Source of the DNA: Agelas oroides | Taxonomy: Eukaryota; Porifera; Demospongiae; Agelasida; Agelasidae | Direction: 5' to 3' | Length of the DNA: 64,000 nt | NCBI GenBank assembly: GCA_949130485.1 | Contig: OX422201.1 | Span: forward strand, 3,260,516 to 3,324,515 | In this document: positions 3,029-60,561 of the stretch, piece by piece | Layout of the letters: every line of letters starts with the position of its first letter | Numbering within the stretch: position 1 is the first letter of the stretch | Made by a program: the position numbers and the translations under genes | The notes under the pieces: generated by a model | What the model was told of the DNA's origin: nothing | The model's input: the letters and a program-made list of their open reading frames with translations, nothing else | Databases searched by the model: none

Positions 3029-3280
3029 ACCAGCAGTCACATCATCAAAATTAAGACAATTGTGTTCCAGCATATACTACATGCTTCCTCTTCATATTGG
3101 TTCACTGACTGTACCTGATTCCCATTGCTGCTGGAAGAGAGTGCTTTGAGAACTTTGGTTCTGCACAGCCAAGCCCATTGAGAAGTAGATCCTACAGAAA
3201 ACATTAAGCAAACAAATACAAAGCTATGCTAAGAATGCATAGTCTCAAAACTCAAACATATTAACGATGAACAATCAACA

Positions 3281-4090
3281 CCCTGACATGCAGGTCAAGG
3301 CTGGGGTGATCACTCCCATATGCCCTGTAGTCACAAATGCGACCACGGTCAAGATCTTAACAATCAACATCATGAGACATCATAAGACACCACGAGACAC
3401 CATAAGGCATCATGATGTCTTATGGTGTCTCGTGGTGACTTATGATGTCTCATGATGTCTTATGGTGTCTCGTGGTGTCTTATGATGTCTTATGGTGTCT
3501 CGTGTGTCTGATGGTGTCTCATGGTGTCTTATGGTGTCTCATGGAGTCTCATGGAGTCTTATGGTGTCTCATGTGTCTGATGGTGTCTGATGGTGTCTCA
3601 TGGTGTCTTATGGCGTCTGATGATGTCTTATGGTGCCATGAGACATCATGAGACATCATGAGACACCATCAGATCGGTAGGCAATGACAATTCTCACTAG
3701 AGGTACGTAGGTGGTACGTAACTACACATGCAAGGACATTATGCATCAGTTTATCCTGCTGGGGCAGCTACTACAACTTCATTAAACTTTTATTCACACA
3801 GTACAACGCTCCATTGGGCAAAACTATTTTCCGCCTGCTGCTGCAAGTGCCATCTTGTAGATGCTTGCATCCACACCGTGCGGGATATACCAAAAATTTG
3901 TGTGGTCAACTGCCCTACTATGGAAAATTGATGGTCAAGATCTTGACCGTAGTCGCAGTTGTGACTACAGGGCATATGGGGGTGATCACCCCTTGACCTG
4001 CATGTCAGGGTCACTCATGATGTCTTATGATGTCTTATGTGTCTTATGGTGTCTCATGATGTCTCATGATGTCTTGTGATGTCTGATGGT
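3281..4090. mobile_element. inverted-repeat element filled with an 8-20-bp satellite
   Basis: About 78 bp at 3281-3360 is repeated inverted at 3935-4013 (CCTGACATGCAGGTCAAGG, GGGTGATCAC, CATATGCCCTGTAGTCACAA). Inside lies a satellite built on ATGATGTCTTATGGTGTCTC. It changes orientation near 3410 and again near 3630, followed by unique sequence from 3675. More satellite lies just outside the right inverted repeat (4014-4090). No convincing target duplication is seen. The open frames come from the repeat and are not genes. Confidence 0.75.
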
Positions 4091-25984: not shown

Positions 25985-26815
25985 TTTTTGTTCACAACCA
26001 CACAACACGACAAGTGCCTGCAAGCAAGTCACTGCCTTAGCATCGCTGTCCACACCCACACAACATGGCAGGTGCCTGTTAGTGGCCACTGCCTCAGCAC
26101 CACTGTCCACACCCACATGACAAGGCAGGTGCCAGTTAGTGGCCACTGCCTCAGCACCACTGTCCACACCCACACGACATGGCAGGTGCCCGTTAGCGGC
26201 CACTGTCTCAGCACCACTGTCCACACCCACACGACATGGCAGGTGCCCGTTAGCGGCCACTGTCTCAGCACCACTGTCCACACCCACACGACATGGCAGG
26301 TGCCCGTTAGCGGCCACTGCCTCAGCACCACTGTCCACACCCACACGACATGGCAGGTGCCCGTTAGCGGCCACTGCCTCAGCACCACTGTCCACACCCA
26401 CACGACATGGCAGGTGCCAGTTAGCGGCCACTGCCTCAGCACCACTGTCCACACCCACACGACATGGCAGGTGCCAGTTAGCGGCCACTGCCTCAGCACC
26501 ACTGTCCACACCCACACGACATGGCAGGTGCCAGTTAGCGGCCACTGCCTCAGCACCACTGTCCACACCCACACGACATGGCAGGTGCCAGTTAGCGGCC
26601 ACTGCCTCAGCACCACTGTCCACACCCACACGACATGGCAGGTGCCAGTTAGCGGCCACTGCCTCAGCACCACTGTCCACACCCACACGACATGGCAGGT
26701 GCCAGTTAGCGGCCACTGCCTCAGCACCACTGTCCACACCCACACGACATGGCAGGTGCCAGTTAGTGGCCACTGCCTCAGCACCACTGTCCACACCCAC
26801 ATGGCGTGGCAGCTA
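25985..26815. repeat. 57-bp minisatellite, about 13-14 copies
   Basis: The unit contains CACGACATGGCAGGTGCC, GTTAGCGGCCACTGC and CTCAGCACCACTGTCCACAC. Central units are nearly identical (26401-26760); outer units carry more changes. The 57-bp period equals 19 codons, so long frames stay open on both strands at once; these are artefacts of the period. The array is absent from duplication copy 2, which diverges at its left edge. Confidence 0.95.
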
Positions 26816-26819
26816 GTTA

Positions 26820-27000
26820 GTGGCCACTCCCATGCTCAGGCAGTGGCCGCTAGTTGGCACTTGCCATGTCTTGTGGGTATGGACAGCAATGCTCAGAGAG
26901 TGGCCGCTAGTTGGCACTTGCCATGTCTTGTGGGTATGGACAGCAATACTCATGTCAACACCCATACAACATGGCAAGTGTCAGCTAGCGGCCACTCATG
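26820..27000. repeat. minisatellite units in inverted orientation
   Basis: Two units run opposite to the main array (GCAGTGGCCGCTAGTTGGCA, CTTGCCATGTCTTGTGGGTA, repeated at a roughly 63-bp spacing), then one unit returns to the original orientation (ACAACATGGCAAGTGTCAGC). This records an inversion within the array. Confidence 0.8.
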
Positions 27001-28194: not shown

Positions 28195-30640
28195 GTAGAG
28201 TCTCAATCTCGGCATACACCAACAAAACGTTCTAGTGAGCGACTTCATCCTTGAACATCCGGATAACACTTGATGAGGGTCTGTTTCATCAGTGAACTTG
28301 TCAAGCATGACAGGCTCAAAGGGAAGCTTTAGTGCAAGCAGACTTTCAATGTTTTGATGTATTCTGTGGTTGAGGTCATCTAGGTGTTGTGATTTCATGT
28401 TGGTTTCAGATGACTGCGGTGCACCCTAACTGGCCTTAGCCTCCACATCTTCCTTTGTAAGGAGGGAATTAAGTTACTGTTTGGCCCAAATATGAGGGTA
28501 CCATATTTACGCACAGGGCACCTGTAGGTGATGTAGTGTTGGAGATTAGCTTTCAGGAAACTCAATACTCACATGCGTGTCACTGACTTGTGTATATCAC
28601 CCTGCTTACCTAGGTTTGCAGTGACAGCAAGCATCTCAGCATGGTTGCAAAGAAAGTCATGGACTGCTGGTAAGTGTAAAACTCGTCTACAGCAGTTCTT
28701 CAGCTTCCATAACTGTAGTGCAGTTTACTGCTGCGTCACGCACATGCTGTAAATTGCCTAGCTCATTGATAACTTCTGCTTCAAGGTGCTAATCACTAGT
28801 AGGAAGTCACTGTTTCTACTGACTAGCATGTTTGCATTAAAATCACCAAATGTAATTTTAGCAATTGTAGCAAACATCATTGGAATTGCCTCAAACCCTG
28901 CAGTTTCCATCAAGTGGCTTTGTATTACAAGTGGGTTTGGGCACTGCCTTGGAGTACCATGATTAAGTGATGAACCACACGTGAAGCAGTTGCATGGTTG
29001 GTGTGGGATGCAGTCCGTTGTATAGCAGGTGGTAATGGTGAGACTGCACAAGGGGGTGGCAGGATGTTGAACAATCCCACGTATAAACCAAGGTGGGAAA
29101 AATTAGGCAAAGCAGTAGTGTGTTGCGCACATGGATGCAAAGAATGTGTTATTGCATGTAGCAAAGTGATAACCAAGGAAAAATTGACACAACTTTGTGA
29201 AGATGCTGCACTTGAATGTAGCAGTGATACCATCCCTGTACCTAATTTTATTGCAACATGGTTGACATATCAACTTGAACAATGAAACTCCCGTGAGAGT
29301 ACGAACTCACAAGCAACATTGACTGCTCTGCATGGAAAGACATCAGAGCATGTTTGCCATCACAGAGTTCACATCTCTTGGACTCATCACCTGCATAATG
29401 CCTGTCTTATGCTCATTCATAGCATCCTGTTGGTATTACGTGTAATGTTTTTATTTCACATCTTTTAGATCAACAATCATACAAGATATGCTCACCTGCA
29501 CAACAAGATCGTTGCTAAGATAACACTCATGTAGGCTACCAGCTGTTATTAATTAATGCATTTCTGTGCAGGTCTCTGGAAATAATTACACAAGAACAAC
29601 TTCAAGTTTCCTGTGCAGTGAGACCTGTTAACCAGCAATCTAACTTCCTGAAGTTAGCAGAGGTTTATGATAACTTGTTGTTGATGGAAAGTTTGGTAGC
29701 CACAGTCCTCTTTACCATGTCCAGGATAAAGAATTATTCATGATGCACGTTGTTTGCCTGTTGTGTGAAAAAAAAACAACAAAAAAAAACACAACTCTAT
29801 GACTTCCGATTCTGTTGGTGGATCGACTGTGTACTACCCTGTTCCAAGAATCGTCTAACGTCACTGAGGATACCACTGGAGTTTTCTGGCAAGTGTTTAG
29901 CTGTGGAGTTCTGAACAATACAAGCAAACAGCTTTGTGTGAATCTTCTTACCTCACTCTCATTTCATAAAAGTTCTGTAATGAGAGCTGGGAGTGTGGTA
30001 GAGTTCTCTGTTGTTGAAATTTTTTGTTCACTGTTGATTGCTGACAACTTTCAAACGATTACAATGTACTGTCCTTCTCCGCTTAGGTCATTCCACTATC
30101 AAGCGTGTCAAAGTATGTTTAAGCATGCCTGTTCCATGTTGAACAATTATGGATGTCACTGCAGCTCTACAATAATTGTTTGCATAGTATTGTGTACTGT
30201 TAAATGGGAAGCTAGATCAGTTGTGTTGTATGTATTTCTGTTGAGCCACCTGTGAGGTAGATGCTTCATTGTGGGGCAAGTTTCTCTGCTAAACAGCATT
30301 GAGTGCAGCTTTAGAGAGTGGTAAGTTGATATTATTGTTAATCGTCATAAACTGTGCATTATATAGGAATTAACCCGTGGCTGGATTCTTCATGGACATG
30401 CCATTAGATCTAGCTAATGCATGATGCTACTTTTTGCATGTGCCTTTATAATTACAGTTTGAAATTGGGCCTATTCAGAATCATATAGCTTATACATATA
30501 TAGCTAACTCTTCATGAGCTCTACTTGAATTGTACATTTATGCTCCTGCAGATGTAATTACTCAATTTTTTGGTACACAAGGATAACAACTGTTTTATTT
30601 ACATGGCAGTTTGTCTGCATAGATATTCAGAATGGATAAT
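28195..30640. other. duplicated non-genic region with coding remnants
   Basis: Colinear with 53562-56180. It holds minus-strand pieces such as MKSQHLDDLNHR (28363-28398 region) seen in both copies, and the inverted Cys-rich segment at 29056-29245. Stops and frame changes differ between copies. I read it as the remnant of one or more old genes or transposons, not an active gene. Confidence 0.5.
29056..29245 (+). pseudogene. Cys-rich coding remnant, inverted relative to the other duplicate
   Basis: The plus strand reads NNPTYKPRWEK, then VVCCAHGCKE, IACSK, TKEKLTQL and LECSSDTIPVP. The same peptide is on the minus strand in duplication copy 2 (54413-54602), where it follows LICQLCRNKIG. The flanking sequence on both sides is colinear between the copies, so only this segment is flipped. 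The cysteine pattern suggests a zinc-binding domain. I do not recognise the family; a transposon origin is possible. Frame breaks around it in both copies argue against an intact gene. Confidence 0.55.
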
Positions 30641-30645
30641 TATAC

Positions 30646-31735
30646 TCAAGCAACTTGCTTTTGTGCAAACACACAATAGTAAAACTTGGCATTGTTAAAT
30701 GTAAAGTCATCTGTGCACTCCCATCTTCTTCGTTCCTTCACACACATTCCAGCTCTAGTGATACACTGGTCAAGTACCTCAGCTGTGATCATTAACATTG
30801 GGCTCTCACTACCCGCTGAAGGCTCAGACCAGGTGTCTCCTTCAGCTGGCAGACTCAATGCTAGGTAGCCTCCAGGCTTTAGAAGGGATGAAAGCTTGTT
30901 GATGGCCATTTTGAGCTCATCCACTGTGTTGCACACTGATTCCAATGCATTGGTTAGCACCACCAAGTTGAATGCCCCTGCACAAGAAAATTAACGAAGA
31001 AGTACAGTGTTTATATACACGAGTTCATGCATTGTCTCACTATATGTGTTAGGCAAATAACATCCACATATTAAGCATAGTAAGACACTATAATAATGGC
31101 TGTTCAGGAACTTTTGTAAAAAAATCAGTTGCTGTCCAAAAGCTGCCGTGTTGGAAACAGTTAAAAAAGCTACCTTCATGATCCTTCCCAAGAGGATGCT
31201 CAGACTTCAGATCACAACGCTGTATAGTAGTGATCTTTTTCCTTAGCGCTTCTGACCGCTTTTCAATAGAATCAGAGCCCCCCTCGACATCTTTCAATAT
31301 GAACCTAAATAAAATAAATGTGTTGCAGTAAGATATAATTATATGAATGTGCATGCCCTACGATTTCTATATCACTGCAATTGCATACCTCAGATATGGA
31401 CTCCAGTCATATGCTGATGGATCATTGTTTTGCCACAGCTCCACCTCCTTTAAATTTTGGGGCAGATAATCAGAGAAGACAATCGTAGACACATATGGAG
31501 TGGCTACTAGCATGTTAGCAATGCACGGTCCACCAGAGATCTCGACCATTGTGATCACATCAGTAGCACCAATATACGATTTTTCAACTGTGAGATACAT
31601 TTGAAAGAATTCGCCAAACCATTTCAAAATATGCACCTGGTTCCACTGAGGGTGGCTAAATTTAGCTTGCAGATACTTTTTAGCATCGAAATCAGAGTTG
31701 TAGCAGCTTGTGACATCCTTTCTTTGGGCGTCCAT
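30646..31735 (-). CDS. NNMT/PNMT/TEMT-family N-methyltransferase, copy 1
   Basis: Three exons on the minus strand: 31735-31389, 31304-31174 and 30977-30646, joined by introns of 84 and 196 bp with GT/AG ends. The start is the first ATG of the open exon and the stop is TGA at 30646-30648. The predicted protein is 269 residues, close to human NNMT (264). Family features: an N-terminal CYNSDFDAKKYL helix region, the SAM-binding motif I at about 64-71 (VEISGGPC, where vertebrate NNMT has an IGSGP form), an acidic motif II in VFSDYLPQN (D89), YDWSPYL at 109-115, HPLGKDHEG before motif IV, and SLLKPGGYLAL near 190-200. Enzymes of this family move a methyl group from S-adenosylmethionine to nicotinamide, catecholamines, tryptamines or thioethers in the cytosol; the substrate here cannot be told. 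It is the last gene of duplication copy 1 and appears intact. Confidence 0.9.
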
Positions 31736-31804
31736 GTTGTCAGTATCTTGTATCTTTGTTGCGTTCTTAGTAAACCTTCCAAGGTCAGACAGTAATAGCT
31801 GCTA

Positions 31805-36430: not shown

Positions 36431-39400
36431 CAGAGGAGGTAGTGCAGGTATACGGATTTTGTATACGTACGTTACGTCTTCCGGTGATATCCGTTATGAT
36501 AATCGGAGTTATGCGGTTGTCGTACAACGAAAGAGCTGTGCCAGACGGCAGATTTCGGCACCATCTGTTCCAAGCTGTGTTCATGCGAACGACCTATCCT
36601 TCAAGATATGTTTATTTCAGGTGGTCAAGGGTCCACAGCTGTCGAGACCGCTGCTACTGCTCCCGTCGGTATGTGAGAACGCTGTAAAAGCCGGGTCCAG
36701 CTTCAAGCCTCTGAAATTGGTGAGATTCAAGCGCCCATAGTGCATGAAGGCAGGGTGCTATCAAGACCGGACTTGCACCAGATTAAAGATCTGTTTCTGT
36801 GCTTTCTGAAAATCCTCACATGATGGGGTGACATCCCCATTAGATTTGGAGCTAATGCCCGTGAAGTTAACCATGTTTTGTGGTTTTGGTGCGCATGGGT
36901 AGCTTTGTCCAATCGTATCTCCTGAACCCTACCACCTATGGACATGAGACTCGAACAGTTGGATGCAGCAATGATTGAAGTTTATAAGGGTATGTAAAAG
37001 TATTGTGACATCCCCATCAGATATGGAGCTGTGAGCCCGTGAAATAAACCATTTTTCATGATTTTGATGCACACGGGTAAATTTGTGTGACTGTATCTCT
37101 TGAACCCTTCCCTCTACAGACACGAGACTTGCACAATTGGATACAGCAAAGATTGAAGTTTATAAAGACGTGTTCAAGCATAGTGACATCCCCATCACAA
37201 TTGAAGCTGTGAGTCCTTGAAGTAAACCATGTTTCATGGTTCTGTACGCATTGGTACTTTTATGTGACCATATCTCCTGAACCCTACTACTTAAAGACAT
37301 GGAACTTGTACCGTAGGACACAGCAAGGATTGGCATTTATAAGGATGTGTTGAAGTACCGTGACATCCACATTAGATTTGGAACTGCGAGCCAATGTGTT
37401 GGTTTTGGTACGTACGCATTGGTAATTCTGTGTGACCATATCTCCCGAACCCTACAAACTGTGGACGTGGAACTTGTGTTGTTGGACACAGCAAGGACAT
37501 GCAGAAAACTTGGCATGAACCCTAGGGAGGTGTACATTATGCCGTTGAAGTTTATAAAGACGTGTTCAAGCATAGTGACATCCCCATCACAATTGAAGCT
37601 GTGAGTCCTTGAAGTAAACCATGTTTCATGGTTCTGTACGCATTGGTAATTTTGTGTGACCATAATATCTCCTGAACCCTACAACTTAGAGACATGGATC
37701 TTGTACCGTAGGACACAGCAAGCAATTTGTATTTGTAGTATGTCTCTGAACATCCATGCATTCAATACACTGAATTGCATTTGTTTTCAGGAACACTCTA
37801 ATAAGCTAGTATGTTTCTACAAGAGTGCATTTTATTATACGTTCTCGGTTCTATGATTGGACGCAGCAAGGACTAAGGAATTTAGCCGAACCCAGGACAC
37901 CTCTGGTTTGGGCTGCCAGTGCTCTGCCACTGAGCCACAACAGCCAGATGGTTTGACTCCCGGCCCTTTCACTTTCCTCTATTTTCGCCTCATAACATCT
38001 TAAATTCCTTTATTGTGCTTAGTCTTTGCTGCGTCCAATCATAGAAACCAAGAACGCATAATAATCACCAAACATTGTTCAGTTCCATTGTTCAGTTCCA
38101 GTCAAAGCAAAATTGATAGCTATTGCATTTCAATAGTGTAGTAATACACAATGAGAGATTGATGTTTCTTACTTAAAGTACCATGATGTTTGATATGTAT
38201 TACAGGCTTGTATGCTGACGTAAATGTATGTCAGGTGACGGATGGGTCAGCCTAAGTCAGTGTATCACTAGCCTTGAGCATGTACCTATCTCGTCTAAAG
38301 TGTTCCAGTAAACAAAATGCAATTCAGTTTACATGTTCAGATGTGTACAATAACTGTTTGGGCTCATGCTATTCCACAATTCCTAAATTTTTAGCTTGTT
38401 ATGCCTAATTATGCCTAAAGGAGTACTGATTATGCTGAAATTATGCTCACGAAATATTGGTCTTTCTTCAATATACAATAGAATACAGACATCTGAATCT
38501 CCCTGGTGACAGCAACAAATAGTCACGCAAACCACACCTTTTGCAGAGGGTGTGGCTTGCGTGACTAAGTGACAAACTCCTGCAAAACTCAGACTAGATG
38601 CAAGCTGTTGATCACTGGATTTGCCGTTGGCTGAGGTGGAACTCTCGTAGTCAAGTCAGCAACTAGTGACTAACGACTTTGCAAGAGCACATGTAGCCTC
38701 TTCGTAAAAATCATTTTATTATGCTCTGAATTTTATGTATTATGCTCCGGGTTTTAAGAACTATGCTCGTTTGCTGAAGGCTACTAATTATGATGCCGGA
38801 ATAATGTACACCTCCCTAGGGTTCATGCCAAGTTTTCTGCATGTCCTTGCTGTGTCCAACAGTACAAGTTCCACGTCCACAGTTTGTAGGGTTCGGGAGA
38901 TATGGTCACACAGAATTACCAATGCGTACGTACCAAAACCAACACATTGGCTCGCAGTTCCAAATCTAATGTGGATGTCACGGTACTTCAACACATCCTT
39001 ATAAATGCCAATCCTTGCTGTGTCCTACGGTACAAGTTCCATGTCTTTAAGTAGTAGGGTTCAGGAGATATGGTCACATAAAAGTACCAATGCGTACAGA
39101 ACCATGAAACATGGTTTACTTCAAGGACTCACAGCTTCAATTGTGATGGGGATGTCACTATGCTTGAACACGTCTTTATAAACTTCAATCTTTGCTGTAT
39201 CCAATTGTGCAAGTCTCGTGTCTGTAGAGGGAAGGGTTCAAGAGATACAGTCACACAAATTTACCCGTGTGCATCAAAATCATGAAAAATGGTTTATTTC
39301 ATGGGCTCACAGCTCCATATCTGATGGGGATGTCACAATACTTTTACATACCCTTATAAACTTCAATCTTTGCTGCATCCAACGGTTCGAGTCTCATGTC

Positions 39401-39914
39401 CATAGGTGGTAGGGTTCAGGAGATACGATTGGACAAAGCTACCCATGCGCACCAAAACCACAAAACATGGTTAACTTCACGGGCATATAGCTCCAAATCT
39501 AATGGGGATGTCACCCCCATCATGTGAGGATTTTCAGAAAGCACAGAAACAGATCTTTAATCTGGTGCAAGTCCGGTCTTGATAGCACCCTGCCTTCATG
39601 CGCTATGGGCGCTTGAATCTCACCAATTTCAGAGGCTTGAAGCTGGACCCAGCTTTTACAGCGTTCTCACATACCGACGGGAGCAGTAGCAGCGGTCTCG
39701 ACAGCTGTGTGGACCCTTGACCACCTGAAATAAACATATCTTGAAGGATAGGTCGTTCGCATGAACACAGCTTGGAACAGATGGTGCCGAAATCTGCCGT
39801 CTGGCACAGCTCTTTCGTTGTACGACAACCGCATAACTCCGATTATCATAACGGATATCACCGGAAGACGTAACGTACGTATACAAAATCCGTATACCTG
39901 CACTACCTCCTCTG
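36431..39914. mobile_element. 3.5-kb foldback element with 1.1-kb inverted arms and 9-bp duplication
   Basis: Arms 36431-37541 and 38802-39914 are close to identical reverse complements, beginning CAGAGGAGGTAGTGCAGGTA at both ends. AGTCTGGGG flanks it exactly (36422-36430 and 39915-39923). The inner half of each arm consists of tandem units of about 180-190 bp, with CATCCCCAT, CCATGTTTCATGGTT, GACCATATCTCCTGAACCCT and ACAGCAAGGATTG recurring. An extra unit lies at 37545-37740. No transposase is recognisable; open frames in the outer arm (36442-36740) carry no known motif. Confidence 0.9.
37832..38062. mobile_element. inner inverted repeat holding a folded SINE piece
   Basis: Within the spacer of the foldback, TTCTATGATTGGACGCAGCA (37853) is mirrored near 38024-38048. 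Between them lies SINE sequence that reads minus (GAACCCAGGACACCTCTGG, GCTCTGCCACTGAGCCACAA) and then plus (TTTGACTCCC, TTTCACTTTCCTCTATTTTC). The GGACGCAGCAAGGAC motif resembles the arm repeat unit. Confidence 0.65.
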
Positions 39915-53561: not shown

Positions 53562-56180
53562 AGAGTCTCAATCTCTGCATCTACCAACAAAACATTCTAG
53601 TGAGAGACTTCATCCTCGAACATCCAGAAGACAGATAGTGTTCCACACTGGAGGGTCTGTTTCGTCAATGAACTTGTCAATATCAAGCATGTCAGGCTCA
53701 AAGGGAAGCTTTTGCAAAAGCAGACATTCAATGTTCTGTGGTTGAGGTCATCTAGGTGTTGTGATTTCATGTTGGTTTCAGATGACTTTGCGGTGCACTC
53801 TAACTGCCTTAGCCTCCACATCGTCTTTGTAAGGAGGGAATTAAGTCAGTGTTTGGCCTAAATATGAGGGTACCATATTTACGTACAGGGCACCTGTAGG
53901 TGATGTGGTGTTGGAGATTAGCTTTCAGGCAACTCACTACCTACATGCATGTCACTGACTTGTGTATATCACCCTGCTTACCTAGGTTTGCAGTGACAGT
54001 GAGTATCTCAGCATGGTTGCAAAGAAAGTCATGGACTGCTGGTAAGTGTAAAACTCAGTCTATGCAGCAGTTCTTCAGCTTCCATAATTGTAGTGCTGTT
54101 TACTGCTGGGTCAAGCACATGCTGTAAATTGCCTAAGTCACTGATGGCATTCTGCTTCAAGGTGCTAATCACTAGTAGGAGGCCACTGTCTCTACTGACC
54201 AGCTTGTTTGCATTTAAAATCACCAAATGTGCAATTGTAGCAGACATTGTCATTGGAATTGATTTTCTCCTCAAACCCTGCAGTTTCCATCAAGTGGCTT
54301 TGTATTACAAGTGGGTTTAGGCATTGCCTTGGAGTACCATGATTAAGTGATGAACCGCACGTGTGGGATGCAGTCTGTTGTACAGCAGGTGGTAATGGTG
54401 ACTGCACAAGGGCGTGGGTACAGGGATGGTATCACTGCTACATTCAAGTCCAGCATCTTCAAAAAGTTGTGTCGATTTTTCCTTGGTTGTCATTTTGCTA
54501 CATGCAATAACATGTTCTTTGCATCCATGTGCGCAACACACTACTCCTTTGCCTGATTTTTCCCACCTCGGTTTATATGTGGGATTGCTCAACACCCTGC
54601 CAATTTTATTGCGACACAGTTGACATATCAACTTCAACAATGAAACTCCCGTGAGAGTACAAACTCACAAGCTCTATGTCTCATCCATTGCTCTGGAAAG
54701 GACATCAGAGCATGTTTGCCATCACAGAGTTCACATCTCTTGGACTCATCACCTGCATAAGATGACTGTCTTCTGCTTTTGCCTGTCTTATGCTCACTCA
54801 TAGCATCCTGTTGGTATTATGTATAATGTTATTATTGAGCTATGAATGCCTGTCACTCAATTTCTAAAAAAATAGCCATACTCATTCTTCTTTACAAAAA
54901 GTAAGTATACCTATTTCTGCATAATATGCATGTTTTCACTTTATTAGATATAATATGACTTTTTTAGATCAACTCGTGTAGGCTACCAGCTGTTATTAAT
55001 TAATGCATAATTTACTACCACACAGATCTCTGGAAATGATTACTCAAGAACAACTTCAAGTTTCCTGTGCAGTGAGACCTGTTAACCAGCAATCTAACTT
55101 CCTGAAGTTAGCTAAATAGGCATGTCAGAAAATTTTTCACATGGCCTCAGTACTGCTGCATCCTATGGTAATGCTCTGCAGGGCTGAGAACTCTACAGAG
55201 CAGAGGTTTATGATAATGTGTTGATGATGGAAAGTTTGGTAGTCATAGCCCCCTTTACCATGTCCAGGATAAGGATTATTCATAATGCACATTGTTTGCC
55301 TGTTGCGCGGGGAAAAAAAAGATTATACACAACTCTATGACTTCCGATTCTGTCGGTGCAACGACTGTGTACTACCCTGTTCCAAGAATCGCCTGAGGAT
55401 ACCACTTGAGTTTTCTGGCAAGTGTTTAGCTGTGTATTTTTGAACATTACAAGCAAACAGGTTTGTGCGAATCTCCTCTTGTTCTCTTACCTCACTCTCA
55501 CTCTCATAAATGTTGTGTAATGAGAGCTGGGAGTGTGGTAGTTGAGTTCTGTGTTGTTGAAATTTTTGTTCACTGTTGACTGCTGACAACTTTAGAACGA
55601 TTACTGTCCTTCTCCACTTAGGTCATTCCACTATCAAGCATGTCAAAGTATGTTTAAGCATGCCTGTTTCCAACAGTCTGTTGGACATATGTATATATTA
55701 TGCATGTCACTGCAGCTCTACAATAATTGTATTGTGTACTCAAGATCGGTTGTGTTGTATGTGTTTCTGTTGAGTCACCTGTGAGGTAGATGCTTCATCG
55801 TGGGGCAAGTTTCTCTGCTAAACAGAATTGAGTGCAGCTTTAGAGAGTGATGTTTAGTAAGTTGATATTATTGTAAATTGTCATAAACTGTGCATTATAA
55901 TTATAGGAATTAACCCGTTGCTGGATTCTTCATGGACATGCCATTAGATCTAGCTATAATGATGTTAATTTTTTGACCTTTATAATTCCAGTTTGAAATC
56001 GGGCCTATTCAGAATCCTATAGCTTATATGTATATAGCTAACTCTTCATGAGCTCTACTTGAATTGTACATATGTTCCTGCAGATGTAATAATATAATGT
56101 ACTCAATTTTTTGGTAAACAAGGATAACAACTGTTTTATTTACATGGCAGTTTGTCTGCATAGATATTCAGAATGGATAA
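53562..56180. other. duplicated non-genic region with coding remnants (copy 2)
   Basis: Colinear with 28195-30640. Minus-strand remnants include KRCELCDGKHAL and MRHRACEFV (about 54650-54760) upstream of the Cys-rich segment, with a frame break between them. No intact gene. Confidence 0.5.
54413..54602 (-). pseudogene. Cys-rich coding remnant, orientation opposite to copy 1
   Basis: The minus strand reads LSNPTYKPRWEKSGKGVVCC, AHGCKEHVIACSK, TKEKSTQLFEDAGLECSSD, and is in frame with LICQLCRNKIG just upstream (to 54640). The plausible run of CxxC-like pairs (CQLC, CC, HGC) suggests that this orientation is the ancestral one and that copy 1 was inverted. It is not intact: a frame break separates it from CELCDGK further upstream. 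Family not recognised. Confidence 0.55.
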
Positions 56181-56186
56181 TTATAC

Positions 56187-57299
56187 TCAAGCAACTTGCT
56201 TTTGTGCAAACACACAATAGTAAAACTTGGCGTTGTTAAATGTAAAGTCATCTGTGCACTCCCATCTTCTTCGTTCCTTCACACACATCCCAGCTTTAGT
56301 GATACACTGATCAAGTACCTCAGCTGTGATCATCAGCATTGGGGCCCCACTGCCTGCAGAAGGAGACACCTGGACCTCAGTCCAGGTGTCTCCTTCAGCT
56401 GGCAGACTCAATGCTAGGTAGCCTCCAGGCTTTAGAAGGGATGAAAGCTTGTTGATGGCCATTTTGAGCTCATCCACTGTGTTGCACACTGATTCCAATG
56501 CATTGGTTAACACCACCAAGTTGAATGCCCCTGCACAAGAAAATTAATGAAGAAGTACAGTGTTGATATACACGAGTTCATGCATTTTCTCACTATATGT
56601 GTTAGGCAAATAACATCCGCATAGTAAGCATAGCAAGAAACTATAATAACGGCTGTTCAGGAACATTTGTAAAAAAAAAATCAGTTGCTGTCCAAAAGCT
56701 GCTGTGTTGCAAATAGTAAAAAGCTACCTTCATGATCCTTCCCAAGAGGATGCTCAGACTTCAGATCACAACACTGTATAGCAGTGATCTTTTTCCTTAG
56801 AGCTTCTGACCGCTTTTCAATAGAATCAGAGCCCCCCTCGACATCTTTCAATACGAACCTAAATAAAATAAATGTGTTGCAGTAAGACATAATTACTATA
56901 TGGTATATGAATGTGCATGCCCTACGATTTCTATATCACTGCAAATGCATACCTCAGATATGGACTCCAGTCATATGCTGATGGATCATTGTTTTGCCAC
57001 AGCTCCACCTCCTTTAAATTTTGGGGCAGATAATCAGAGAAGACAATCGTAGATACATATGGAGTGGCTACTAGCATGTTAGCAATGCACGGTCCACCAG
57101 AGATCTCGACCATTGTGATCGTATCAGTAGCACCGATATGCGATTTTTCAACTGTGAGATACATTTGAAAGAATTCGCCAAACCATTTCAAAATATGCCC
57201 CTGGTGCCACTGAGGGTGGCTAAATCTAGTTTGCAGATACTTTTTAGCATCGAAATCAGAGTTGTAGCAGCTTGTGACATCTGTTCTTTGGGCGTCCAT
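56187..57299 (-). CDS. NNMT/PNMT/TEMT-family N-methyltransferase, copy 2
   Basis: Exons 57299-56953, 56858-56728 and 56530-56187 on the minus strand; the first two have the same lengths as in copy 1 (347 and 131 nt). The third is 12 nt longer, giving a predicted 273 residues. It keeps VEISGGPC (SAM motif I), VFSDYLPQN, YDWSPYL, HPLGKDHEG and SLLKPGGYLAL. Differences from copy 1 are scattered substitutions (for example AQRT against AQRK, KSHIG against KSYIG) plus the 4-residue insertion TEVQVSP in place of SEP after GDTW, caused by a small hairpin. No stop or splice damage is visible, so both paralogues may be active. The role is SAM-dependent methylation of a small amine; the substrate is unknown. 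Confidence 0.9.
56362..56393. repeat. 14-bp perfect hairpin inside the third exon of the copy 2 methyltransferase
   Basis: GGAGACACCTGGAC (56362-56375), loop CTCA, GTCCAGGTGTCTCC (56380-56393). Copy 1 has only the second arm, so the other arm is a new inverted duplicate. The change is in frame. Confidence 0.9.
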
Positions 57300-57648
57300 G
57301 TTGTCAGTATCTTGTATCTTTGTTGCGTTCTTTATAGGAGAGTAAACCTTCCAAGGTTAGACAGTAGTAGACTGCCTCTGGGTCGCTGCTGCTTGCCGGG
57401 TCACGTGCTAGTTTGTTACGGCGCGCGTGTGTCCCTTTAGGGATGACCAGACCCTCGCGCTATGCTAAGTTGTCCATTCTATTCTCTGTTCCAGCTGCTG
57501 CCTCACCGCTCAACTGAGGTAAAATGACACGGAAATCCGTTTACTCTCCGTTTTACTAACGCTGCAATGATTGTATCACATATTCTCATAGTGGACGGAA
57601 ACGTTTCACATCCACGGAAGTGTATAGTATCTATGGTAGTATTGTGTG

Positions 57649-60263
57649 GGTTGTTTCTCCATGTAACCGGTCACTACATTACATCATTGTGATGTAACCC
57701 ATCAGTACATCAGTACATTACATCATTATCTGCAACTGCTGTCACTACTGTCAGTAGTGTCACCACTGTCACAGTAGTCACTACTGTCACCTCTGTCACA
57801 GTAGTCACTACTGTCACAACTGTCACAGTAGTCACTAGTGTCACACTGTCACAGTAGTCACTACTGTCCCCACTGTCACAGTAGTCACTACCGTCACCTC
57901 TGTCACAGTAGTCACTACTGTCACCTCTGTCACAGTAGTCACTACTGTCACCTCTGTCACAGTAGTCACTACTGTCACAAATGTCACAGTAGTCACTAGT
58001 GTCACACTGTCACAGTAGTCACTACTGTTCCCACTGTCACAGTAGTCACTACCGTCACCTCTGTCACAGTAGTCACTACTGTCACCTCTGTCACAGTAGT
58101 CACTACTGTCACCTGTCACAGTAGTCACTACTGTGACAACTGTCACAGTAGTCACTACTGTTACCTCTGTCACAGTAGTCACTGCTGTCACCTCTGTCAC
58201 AGTAGTCACTACTGTCACAACTGTCACAGTAGTCACTATTGTCACAGTAGTCACTACTGTCCCCACTGTCACAGTAGTCACTACTGTCACTACTGTCACA
58301 CTGTCACAGTAGTCACAGTAGTCACAACTGTCACAGTAGTCACTACTGTCACCTCTGTCACAGTAGTCACTACTGTCACCACTGTCACAGTGGTCACTAC
58401 TGTCCCCACTGTCACAGTAGTCACTACTGTCACCACTGTCACAGTAGTCACAACTGTCACAACTGTCACAGTAGTCACTATTGTCACAGTAGTCACTACT
58501 GTCCCCACTGTCACAATAGTCACTACTGTCACCTCTGTCACAGTAGTCACTACTGTCACCACTGTCACAGTAGTCACTACTGTCACCTCTGTCACAGTGG
58601 TCACTACTGTCCCCACTGTCACAGTAGTCACTACTGTCACCACTGTCACAGTAGTCACAACTTTCACAACTGTCACAGTAGTCACTATTGTCACAGTAGT
58701 CACTACTGTCCCCACTGTCACAGTAGTCACTACTGTCACAGTAGTCACTACTGTCACAGTAGTCACTACTGTCACCTCTGTCACAGTAGTCACTACTGTC
58801 ACAGTGGTCACTACTGTCACCACTGTCACAGTAGTCACAACTGTCACAACTGTCACAGTAGTCACTATTGTCACAGTAGTCACTACTGTCCCCACTGTCA
58901 CAATAGTCACTACTGTCACCTCTGTCACAGTAGTCACAACTGTCACCACTGCCACAGTAGTCACTACTGTCCCCACTGTCACAGTAGTCACTACTGTCAC
59001 CACTGTCACAGTAGTCACAACTGTCCCCGCTGTCATAACTGTCACACTGTCACAGTAGTCACTACTGTCACCACTGTCACAGTAGTCACTACTGTTACCA
59101 CTGTCACAGTAGTCACTACTGTCACCACTGTCACAGTGGTCACTACTGTCACCTCTGTCACAGTAGTCACTATACTGTCACTATACTGTCACATGCAGTA
59201 GTCACCACTGTCACAGTAGTCACTATTGTCACAGTAGTCACTACTGTCACCTCTGTCACAGTAGTCACTACTGTCACCTCTGTCACAGTAGTCACCACTG
59301 TCACAATAGTCACTATTGTCACAGTAGTCACTACTGTCACCTCTGTCACAGTAGTCACTACTGTCACCTCTGTCACAGTAGTCACTACTGTCACCTCTGT
59401 CACAGTAGTCACTACTGTCACCACTGTCACAGTAGTGACTACTGTGACAGTAGTGACAGTAGTGACTACTGTGACAGAAGTGACAGTAGTGACTACTATG
59501 ACAGTGGTGACAGTAGTGACTACTGTGACAGTGGGGACAGTAGTGACCACTGTGACAGTGGTGACAGTAGTGACTACTGTGACAGTAGTGACAGTAGTGA
59601 CAGTAGTGACAGAGGTGACAGTAGTGACTACTGTGACAGTGGTGACAGTAGTGACCACTGTGACAGTGGTGACAGTAGTGACCACTGTGACAGTGGTGAC
59701 AGTAGTGACTACTGTGACAGTAGTGACTACTGTGACAGAAGTGACAGTAGTGACTACTGTGACAGTGGTGACAGTAGTGACTACTGTGACAGTAGTGACA
59801 GTAGTGACTACTGTGACAGAAGTGACAGTAGTGACTACTATGACAGTGGTGACAGTAGTGACTACTGTGACAGTGGGGACAGTAGTGACTACTGTGGCAG
59901 TGGGGACAGTAGTGACTACTGTGACAGTGTGACACTAGTGACTACTGTGACAGTAGTGACAGAGGTGACAGTAGTGACTACTGTGACAGAGGTGACAGTA
60001 GTGACTACTGTGACAGTGGGGACGGTAGACTACTGTGACAGTGGGGACAGTAGTGACTACTGTGACAGTGTGACACTAGTGACTACTGTGACAGTTGTGA
60101 CAGTTGTGACAGTAGTGACTACTGTGACAGGTGACTACTGTGACAGTGGTGACACTACTGACAGTAGTGACAGCAGTTGCAGATAATGATGTAATGTACT
60201 GATGTACTGATGGGTTACATCACAATGATGTAATGTAGTGACCGGTTACATGGAGAAGCACCC
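57649..60263. mobile_element. 2.6-kb foldback element with satellite arms and 8-bp duplication
   Basis: Unique terminal repeats of about 85 bp (GGTTGTTTCTCC at the left, inverted GGGTGCTTCTCC at the right, then CATGTAACCGGTCACTAC and TTACATCATTGTGATGTAA) enclose a satellite built on GTCACAGTAGTCACTACT. ATTGTGTG flanks it exactly (57641-57648 and 60264-60271). The satellite runs one way from about 57730 to 59436 and the opposite way from 59437 to about 60178. The basic unit is 18-27 bp, all multiples of three, so every frame stays open as Val/Thr-rich peptide; no gene is implied. Confidence 0.92.
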
Positions 60264-60271
60264 ATTGTGTG

Positions 60272-60561
60272 TAGGATTCACGCAGAAAAAGCAGCTTATC
60301 TGGCCATCAGCCTGAGGGAGGCCAGCTGCAACTGTGCTGACTAACCTACTCCCTGAATAGCGCGGAAATTATGAACCCTTGACCACTGCCCTGGATATTC
60401 CAGACAGGACTCAATCGGATGCGGTTGAAAGCTAGAACCCGTCGCAGAGATGAGAGCTGGCAGAGGATGTTGAACATCTCGTGCGTCTGGCCTATCCCGA
60501 GGCAGCTGAAGCTATGGTGGATGTGCTGACCAAAGACTAGTTTGTAGACGCTCTACCGGAT
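60272..60561 (+). pseudogene. Ty3/gypsy gag fragment
   Basis: The plus strand reads AEKAAYLAISLRE, then after frame breaks ELAEDVEHLVRLAYPEAAEA and MVDVLTKD, a TAG (60538-60540), then FVDALPD. This pattern (an AYLAISLRG-like start, ELA..I..L.RLAYP, LTKDQFIDALPD) is the core of gag from Ty3/gypsy elements with a retrotransposon gag domain, which forms the particle shell. Several stops show decay. The fragment is bordered at the left by the foldback element's right duplication and at the right by the start of the Mutator-like element, so both have landed in or next to it. Confidence 0.75.

Follow-up and report, generated by a model that had tools for sequence, protein, structure and literature searches.

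Positions 57641 to 60271 of this 64,000-nucleotide stretch of the Agelas oroides genome (contig OX422201.1; the whole stretch is called the window here) hold a satellite that reverses direction between two inverted ends, which raises the question of what kind of element this is and what could have moved it. An earlier note had proposed a foldback transposon mobilized as a unit. Our preferred answer, to which we assign a probability of about 80%, is that the window element is a non-autonomous, coreless foldback DNA transposon from a family whose larger copies have a core between inverted arms in a 9-bp register, that a transposase with DDE, OTU, and CXC parts most likely acts on its ends, and that the arms are putative arrays of binding sites.

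The element spans positions 57649 to 60263 (2,615 bp) and is bounded by target site duplications, the 8-bp direct repeat ATTGTGTG being identical at 57641 to 57648 and at 60264 to 60271, as had been claimed. Its unique terminal inverted repeats, GGTTGTTTCTCCATGTAAC... on the forward strand at 57649 to 57734 and the counterpart on the reverse strand at 60178 to 60263, each comprise about 86 bp of non-satellite sequence. This agrees with the roughly 85 bp given previously, but the identity between the inverted ends extends further, to about 110 bp. Among the first 110 bases 108 are the same, and the mismatches at positions 3 and 6 distinguish GGTTGT on the left from GGGTGC on the right.

Between these ends lie two satellite arms that are indeed unequal. 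The left arm (57735 to 59436, forward strand, about 1.7 kb) is composed of the 9-bp units GTCACAGTA, GTCACTACT, GTCACCTCT, and GTCACCACT with a higher-order repeat of 27 bp, and the right arm (59438 to 60177, reverse strand, about 0.74 kb) carries the same satellite inverted. Tandem Repeats Finder gives periods of 9, 18, and 27 bp in the arms and a strand switch near 59430. The top inversion center among positions 59380 to 59499 is base 59437, where the flip had been placed, and the symmetry is free of gaps for 236 bp per side. This base is the midpoint of the self-complementary 15-bp satellite word CAGTAGTnACTACTG, and the 76 bases around it form an almost perfect hairpin as single-stranded DNA (-38.6 kcal/mol, z -9.9). 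No coding capacity was seen in the element except for frames opened by the stop-poor repeat, also as previously stated. Tandem-repeat inverted arms, unique ends, and a target duplication together give the element the structure of a foldback transposon.

Other copies were sought in the genome to which the window belongs (259 Mb, 141 contigs) with a 25-base pattern of the termini, allowing 3 mismatches at most and taking the reversed pattern as a control. The pattern has 55 matches and the control has 7. At most one mismatch is present in 37 ends (31 with none and 6 with one), and one or the other of two satellites is present in 14 of the 19 stretches read around such ends. Because of this excess over the control and the presence of satellite in these stretches, the family ends are not attributable to chance. 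Ten distinct copies are two-ended (the window copy, L031, L032, L033, L034, L035, L037, L040, L045, and L048), whereas the remaining stretches among the 19 have one recognized end or a broken end. Family ends, written as GGTTGTTTCTCC ends and following a GG...TGTAA pattern, are either L-type (GGTTGT or GGCTGT) or R-type (GGGTGC or GGGTAC). One of each type is found in 8 of the 10 two-ended copies, and in L035 and L037 both ends are L-type. Exact 8-bp duplications flank 7 of the 10. Arm length varies among the dispersed copies, from 0.8 to 3.9 kb in satellite subfamily A (defined below) when ends are included. Further copies therefore exist, and with their terminal repeats and 8-bp duplications they bear out the proposal that the foldback transposon moved as a unit.

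Two arrangements of family copies were also noted. L035 and L036 (C1:5577161 and C1:5444056, 133 kb apart) are identical over 8,597 bp, which reflects either segmental duplication in the very recent past or duplication during assembly. In addition, four family ends (GGTTGTTTCTCCATGTAACCTGTCA) lie within about 120 kb at C9:4102386, 4152982, 4198138, and 4222544. One of these, L060, has 13-bp repeats in place of the 9-bp satellite and, as judged by eye, appears to lie within another inverted duplication.

Two satellite subfamilies are joined to the same type of ends. Subfamily A (the window copy, L031 to L034, L038, and L039) has the units GTCACTACT, GTCACCACT, and GTCACAGTA, and subfamily B (L035, L037, L044, and L045) has the units GTGTCCATG, GTGTCTGAG, and GTGCCTGCA. 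In all 23 arms measured, the mean self-match is 0.57-0.84 at multiples of 9 bp versus 0.20-0.30 elsewhere. The corresponding values for L063 and L066, which are pieces of the satellite array of a C3 element described below, are 0.64-0.89 and 0.26-0.27. These arms and pieces represent five satellites, of which those of subfamily B and of a C2 element are related to each other. Across the window and the 19 stretches, 24 further arrays reach 100 bp or more; none has this register, and three low-complexity arrays in L049 come closest, at near 0.5. The arm satellites measured thus retain the 9-bp register while their sequence differs among subfamilies.

Two other candidate family traits were rejected. 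The satellite word had been described as palindromic, and this holds at 59437 and for subfamily A, but single-strand folding z-scores of -4.4 (A), -0.3 (B), and -0.6 (C2) do not extend the property to the whole family. Likewise, a universal GTnnC anchor in fixed orientation does not fit the data, since the motif tiles both strands of subfamily A (0.78-0.93 for the reverse) and very little of L063 (0.06).

The window copy is a relative, without a core, of larger family copies. Four two-ended copies of 5.8-7.4 kb have a 1.5-kb core between their arms, which the window copy lacks. In subfamily A, five copies (L031 to L034 and L038) contain a core of about 1.5 kb that is 92-99% identical to that of L031, and L039 has about 0.3 kb between its arms without this core. 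The subfamily A core includes decayed pieces akin to the OTU-CXC portion of a transposase. A further copy of this core, L055 (C1:15907713-15910829), has its middle replaced by a fragment with GEPGTGKTT, which we take to be an ATP-binding motif.

Long open transposase frames are present in two elements that also have GG ends, exact 8-bp duplications, and inverted satellite arms. The C2 element (2532716-2548115, 15.4 kb) has the ends GGTACATGGC.../GGTAGATGGC... and the duplication AAATATCC, and the C3 element (13202331-13216406, 14.1 kb) has 65 identical terminal bases (GGTTAGTTCCCCATGTAAG...) and the duplication AAATTAGG. Their frames of 930 and 949 amino acids, with OTU and CXC parts, are flanked by inverted satellite arrays at C2:2532807-2534627 and 2546387-2548020 and at C3:13202396-13205528 and 13213891-13216312. 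Coordinates of matches indicate the same flanking pattern at C8 and C15, where the transposase matches are shorter. A search with the satellite of the C2 element recovers arms of subfamily B with identities as high as 76% (E 3e-54), and the end of the C3 element agrees with the window ends at 15 of 18 bases (left) and 14 of 18 (right).

In the end scan of the C2 element, the top-scoring TATATATA, an internal palindrome, was set aside for the second-ranked AAATATCC pair, because the latter adjoins the inverted match and yields GG ends. The same 8-bp duplication flanks L034, a coincidence that is due either to chance or to target preference.

The family transposase is probably a Mutator/IS256-like enzyme. 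Foldseek assigns to a homologue of the C2- and C3-type transposase an ISCth4-like fold (IS256 family, Mutator-related) and an OTU protease. The transposase is of the RNase H-like DDE kind with a helical insertion and a C/DxxH motif, as expected for Mutator/IS256, and the 8-bp duplications of the family copies and of the C2 and C3 elements fit the 8-9 bp typical of this group. We propose that this DDE transposase, with its OTU protease and CXC domain and supplied by elements of 14-15 kb that share this design, would mobilize the family by acting at GG...TGTAA ends and leaving 8-bp duplications, and that the arms may constitute long arrays of transposase-binding sites in 9-bp register. Neither MULE nor Transposase_mut is among the 19 Pfam families matched by 54 members at E 0.1, although such profiles miss distant relatives, and an NCBIfam profile search gave no match.

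A number of observations weigh against this proposal. The catalytic domain matches no Pfam model, so its superfamily assignment rests on fold and residues. Core fragments give no OTU match in Pfam and a CXC match only below threshold, and the nearest paralogue of the core fragment, its own core copies aside, is 43% identical. Genome searches revealed no intact transposase near in sequence to this fragment and no transposase copy whose ends are exactly those of the window element. The ends of the C2 element agree with those of the window element at 8-10 of 18 bases (9 and 10 for the left end), and 9-10 of 18 is expected by chance with a probability of about 8%. The cores of subfamily B contain a long interspersed nuclear element (LINE), with LINE-type reverse transcriptase recognized by eye in translations of L035 and L045, and include no transposase fragment. 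In L065 and in the near-identical L056 and L057, the transposase has no satellite within about 1 kb, and there is no 9-bp satellite in about 2.8 kb at the family end L060. Exact duplications are absent in 3 of the 10 two-ended copies, where L031, L037, and L040 match at 2, 3, and 6 of 8 positions. Finally, an empty target site, which the earlier note had suggested looking for, was not identified in a genome-wide search with 241 bases from each side of the element. Both flanks are dispersed repeats, and they are paired nowhere among the matches listed.

The lack of a transposase with identical ends and the decay of the OTU-CXC fragment would also be expected if a different, unseen transposase (for example, a P-type enzyme as in Galileo or a conventional MULE) moved the element and the core fragment were no more than a captured piece of a gene. 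Excerpts of published work place the foldback design in several superfamilies (PMC4079207, PMC3688188), which is compatible with this idea. However, the transposase-bearing elements have the same layout and 8-bp duplications as the family copies, the C3 element has 15 of 18 terminal bases in common with the left end of the window element, and the satellite of subfamily B is related to that of the C2 element, which makes a separate enzyme quite improbable. The Pfam search of the 54 members gave no THAP match, and the P-element structure was matched weakly (E 1.1e-3), less well than ISCth4 in Foldseek. The kinship supported for the family is that with a Mutator/IS256-fold transposase.

Comparisons between copies suggest that the window copy was probably built by joining a left arm to a right end, with loss of the core at the palindromic word. 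The right arm is nearest to its own left arm (0.57 of 24-mers; runner-up 0.36), and 65 of the 161 right-arm 24-mers that are absent from other copies recur in the left arm. Each window arm holds two occurrences of one variant, CTAGTGTCACACTGTCAC, which 12 other arms all lack. Moreover, the right end is a hybrid in which the R-type hexamer GGGTGC stands over L-type subterminal sequence. Because of these private variants and end types, we suggest that the left arm was joined to the right end via the stretch common to both end types (positions 7 to about 84) and that the core was lost through copying or joining across the palindromic word at 59437. The 8-bp duplication shows that the coreless product was later transposed as one unit.

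The private variants common to both window arms could also reflect ongoing conversion between arms, which would maintain mirror symmetry without a single founding rearrangement. We consider this unlikely, since in the core-bearing lineages (L031/L032 and L033/L034/L038) an arm has 0.48-0.89 of its 24-mers in common with the arm on the same side of a sister copy, against 0.22-0.39 with the opposite arm of its own copy. Copy-private sharing between arms in L031, L032, L033, L034, L038, and L039 amounts to 0, 0, 0, 0, 7, and 2 24-mers, respectively. Lineage-private sharing in the same order is 34/305, 4/283, 5/257, 1/223, 27/364, and 2/95. The raised counts for L031 and L038 favor conversion to some extent and count against a single rearrangement, but they are still below the 65/161 of the window copy. 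Misassembly is common at tandem repeats, and the flip at 59437 might in principle be an artificial join of two unrelated satellite reads. The exact 8-bp duplication and matching ends make this highly improbable, as do mirror arrays without a long core at C9, C12, C13, and C21, where coordinates of satellite matches place short-range direction changes in other satellites.

Several known systems resemble the window element and its family. The sea urchin TU and Drosophila FB elements are foldback elements with short-repeat arms, and TU elements have 8-bp duplications and 15-bp repeats. Their repeat period differs from that of the window family. The published comparisons that follow draw on partial texts of the papers cited. 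Foldback elements with tandem-repeat ends are known, and most have been assigned to Mutator (PMC4079207, PMC3169594). The root-knot nematode Mutator/Foldback element Tm1 (PMC3169594) likewise has composite, unequal terminal repeats with variable short tandem repeats (13-15 bp), short asymmetric terminal motifs, no clear target consensus, and both transposase-coding members and members resembling miniature inverted-repeat transposable elements. However, Tm1 has mostly 9-bp duplications, a 496-amino-acid protein, and a length of 2.6 kb, compared with 8-bp duplications, 930- and 949-amino-acid frames with OTU and CXC parts, 14-15 kb elements, and subfamily-specific satellites in 9-bp register here. 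Tetris (PMC4079207) is a foldback element with tandem repeats in its terminal repeats, non-autonomous copies, and 8-10 bp duplications, but its repeats are 220 bp long and no transposase has been found for it, whereas candidate transposase elements and a 9-bp register are found here.

Galileo (PMC3688188) has long, internally repetitive terminal repeats, and its transposase binds repeats within these ends, which provides the closest support for reading the arms as arrays of sites. Its enzyme is a THAP transposase of the P superfamily, in contrast to the ISCth4-like fold with OTU and CXC parts in the transposon family described here. ISCth4 of the IS256 family (PMC7780238) resembles this family in transposase fold, 8-bp duplications, the C/DxxH motif, and a left and a right end whose differences fall mostly within the first 14 bp. 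Its subterminal TGTAAA compares in motif with TGTAAC/TGTAAG at positions 14-19 here. In contrast, ISCth4 is a bacterial 1.5-kb insertion sequence, and satellite arms, OTU, and CXC are not mentioned in the part of the source consulted. A literature search at the level of titles and abstract openings, conducted mostly without subscription papers, yielded no description of an OTU-CXC transposase or a DDE-OTU-CXC foldback family, which is weak evidence for novelty, and a term search of PMC6446971 gave no mention of OTU.

The sponge combines, within one genome and in one design, copies with a core, copies lacking it, and elements of 14-15 kb that bear a transposase. Foldback elements are often found without a transposase, and the role of their repetitive arms is mostly open to test. 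Since the register is kept while arm sequence turns over, binding assays offer a direct test of what the arms do. A likely path by which a transposon becomes a mirror-symmetric satellite is also recorded in the window copy, and an OTU protease within a DDE transposase is a further oddity. More tentatively, these elements might belong to a clade of giant eukaryotic Mutator/IS256-fold transposons whose transposase carries its own OTU deubiquitinase and CXC DNA-binding domain. In such a clade, only the 9-bp register of the kilobase end arrays might be selected as transposase multimers sit along them, array and transposase would co-evolve, and palindromic arrays could repeatedly collapse to coreless mirror elements that seed satellites.

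The insertion lies at the seam of two repeats, as judged from flank repeats that abut it. The left flank (57470-57638) is a dispersed repeat with 39 other places, mostly stopping 1-5 bases before the insertion, and the right flank (60274-60512) is a different dispersed repeat with 10 other places, starting 3 bases past the duplication. A duplicate within the window (30467-31802) was rejected as an empty site, since its 93% match stops at 57375, short of the insertion. This duplicate and 56001-57375 carry the same gene stretch at 93% identity, and their open frames on the minus strand are similar.

The window includes other inverted or direction-changing repeats. A second element with long inverted repeats at 36431-39914 has 1,118-bp ends that are 98.9% alike, an exact 9-bp duplication (AGTCTGGGG), and arms partly composed of 178-bp tandem repeats. 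A 10-bp satellite (TCATGGTGTC) that changes direction occupies 3280-4090, within and beside an inverted pair of 88 bp (3280-3367/3928-4011, 90%). A 57-bp satellite at 26030-26952 changes direction near 26820.
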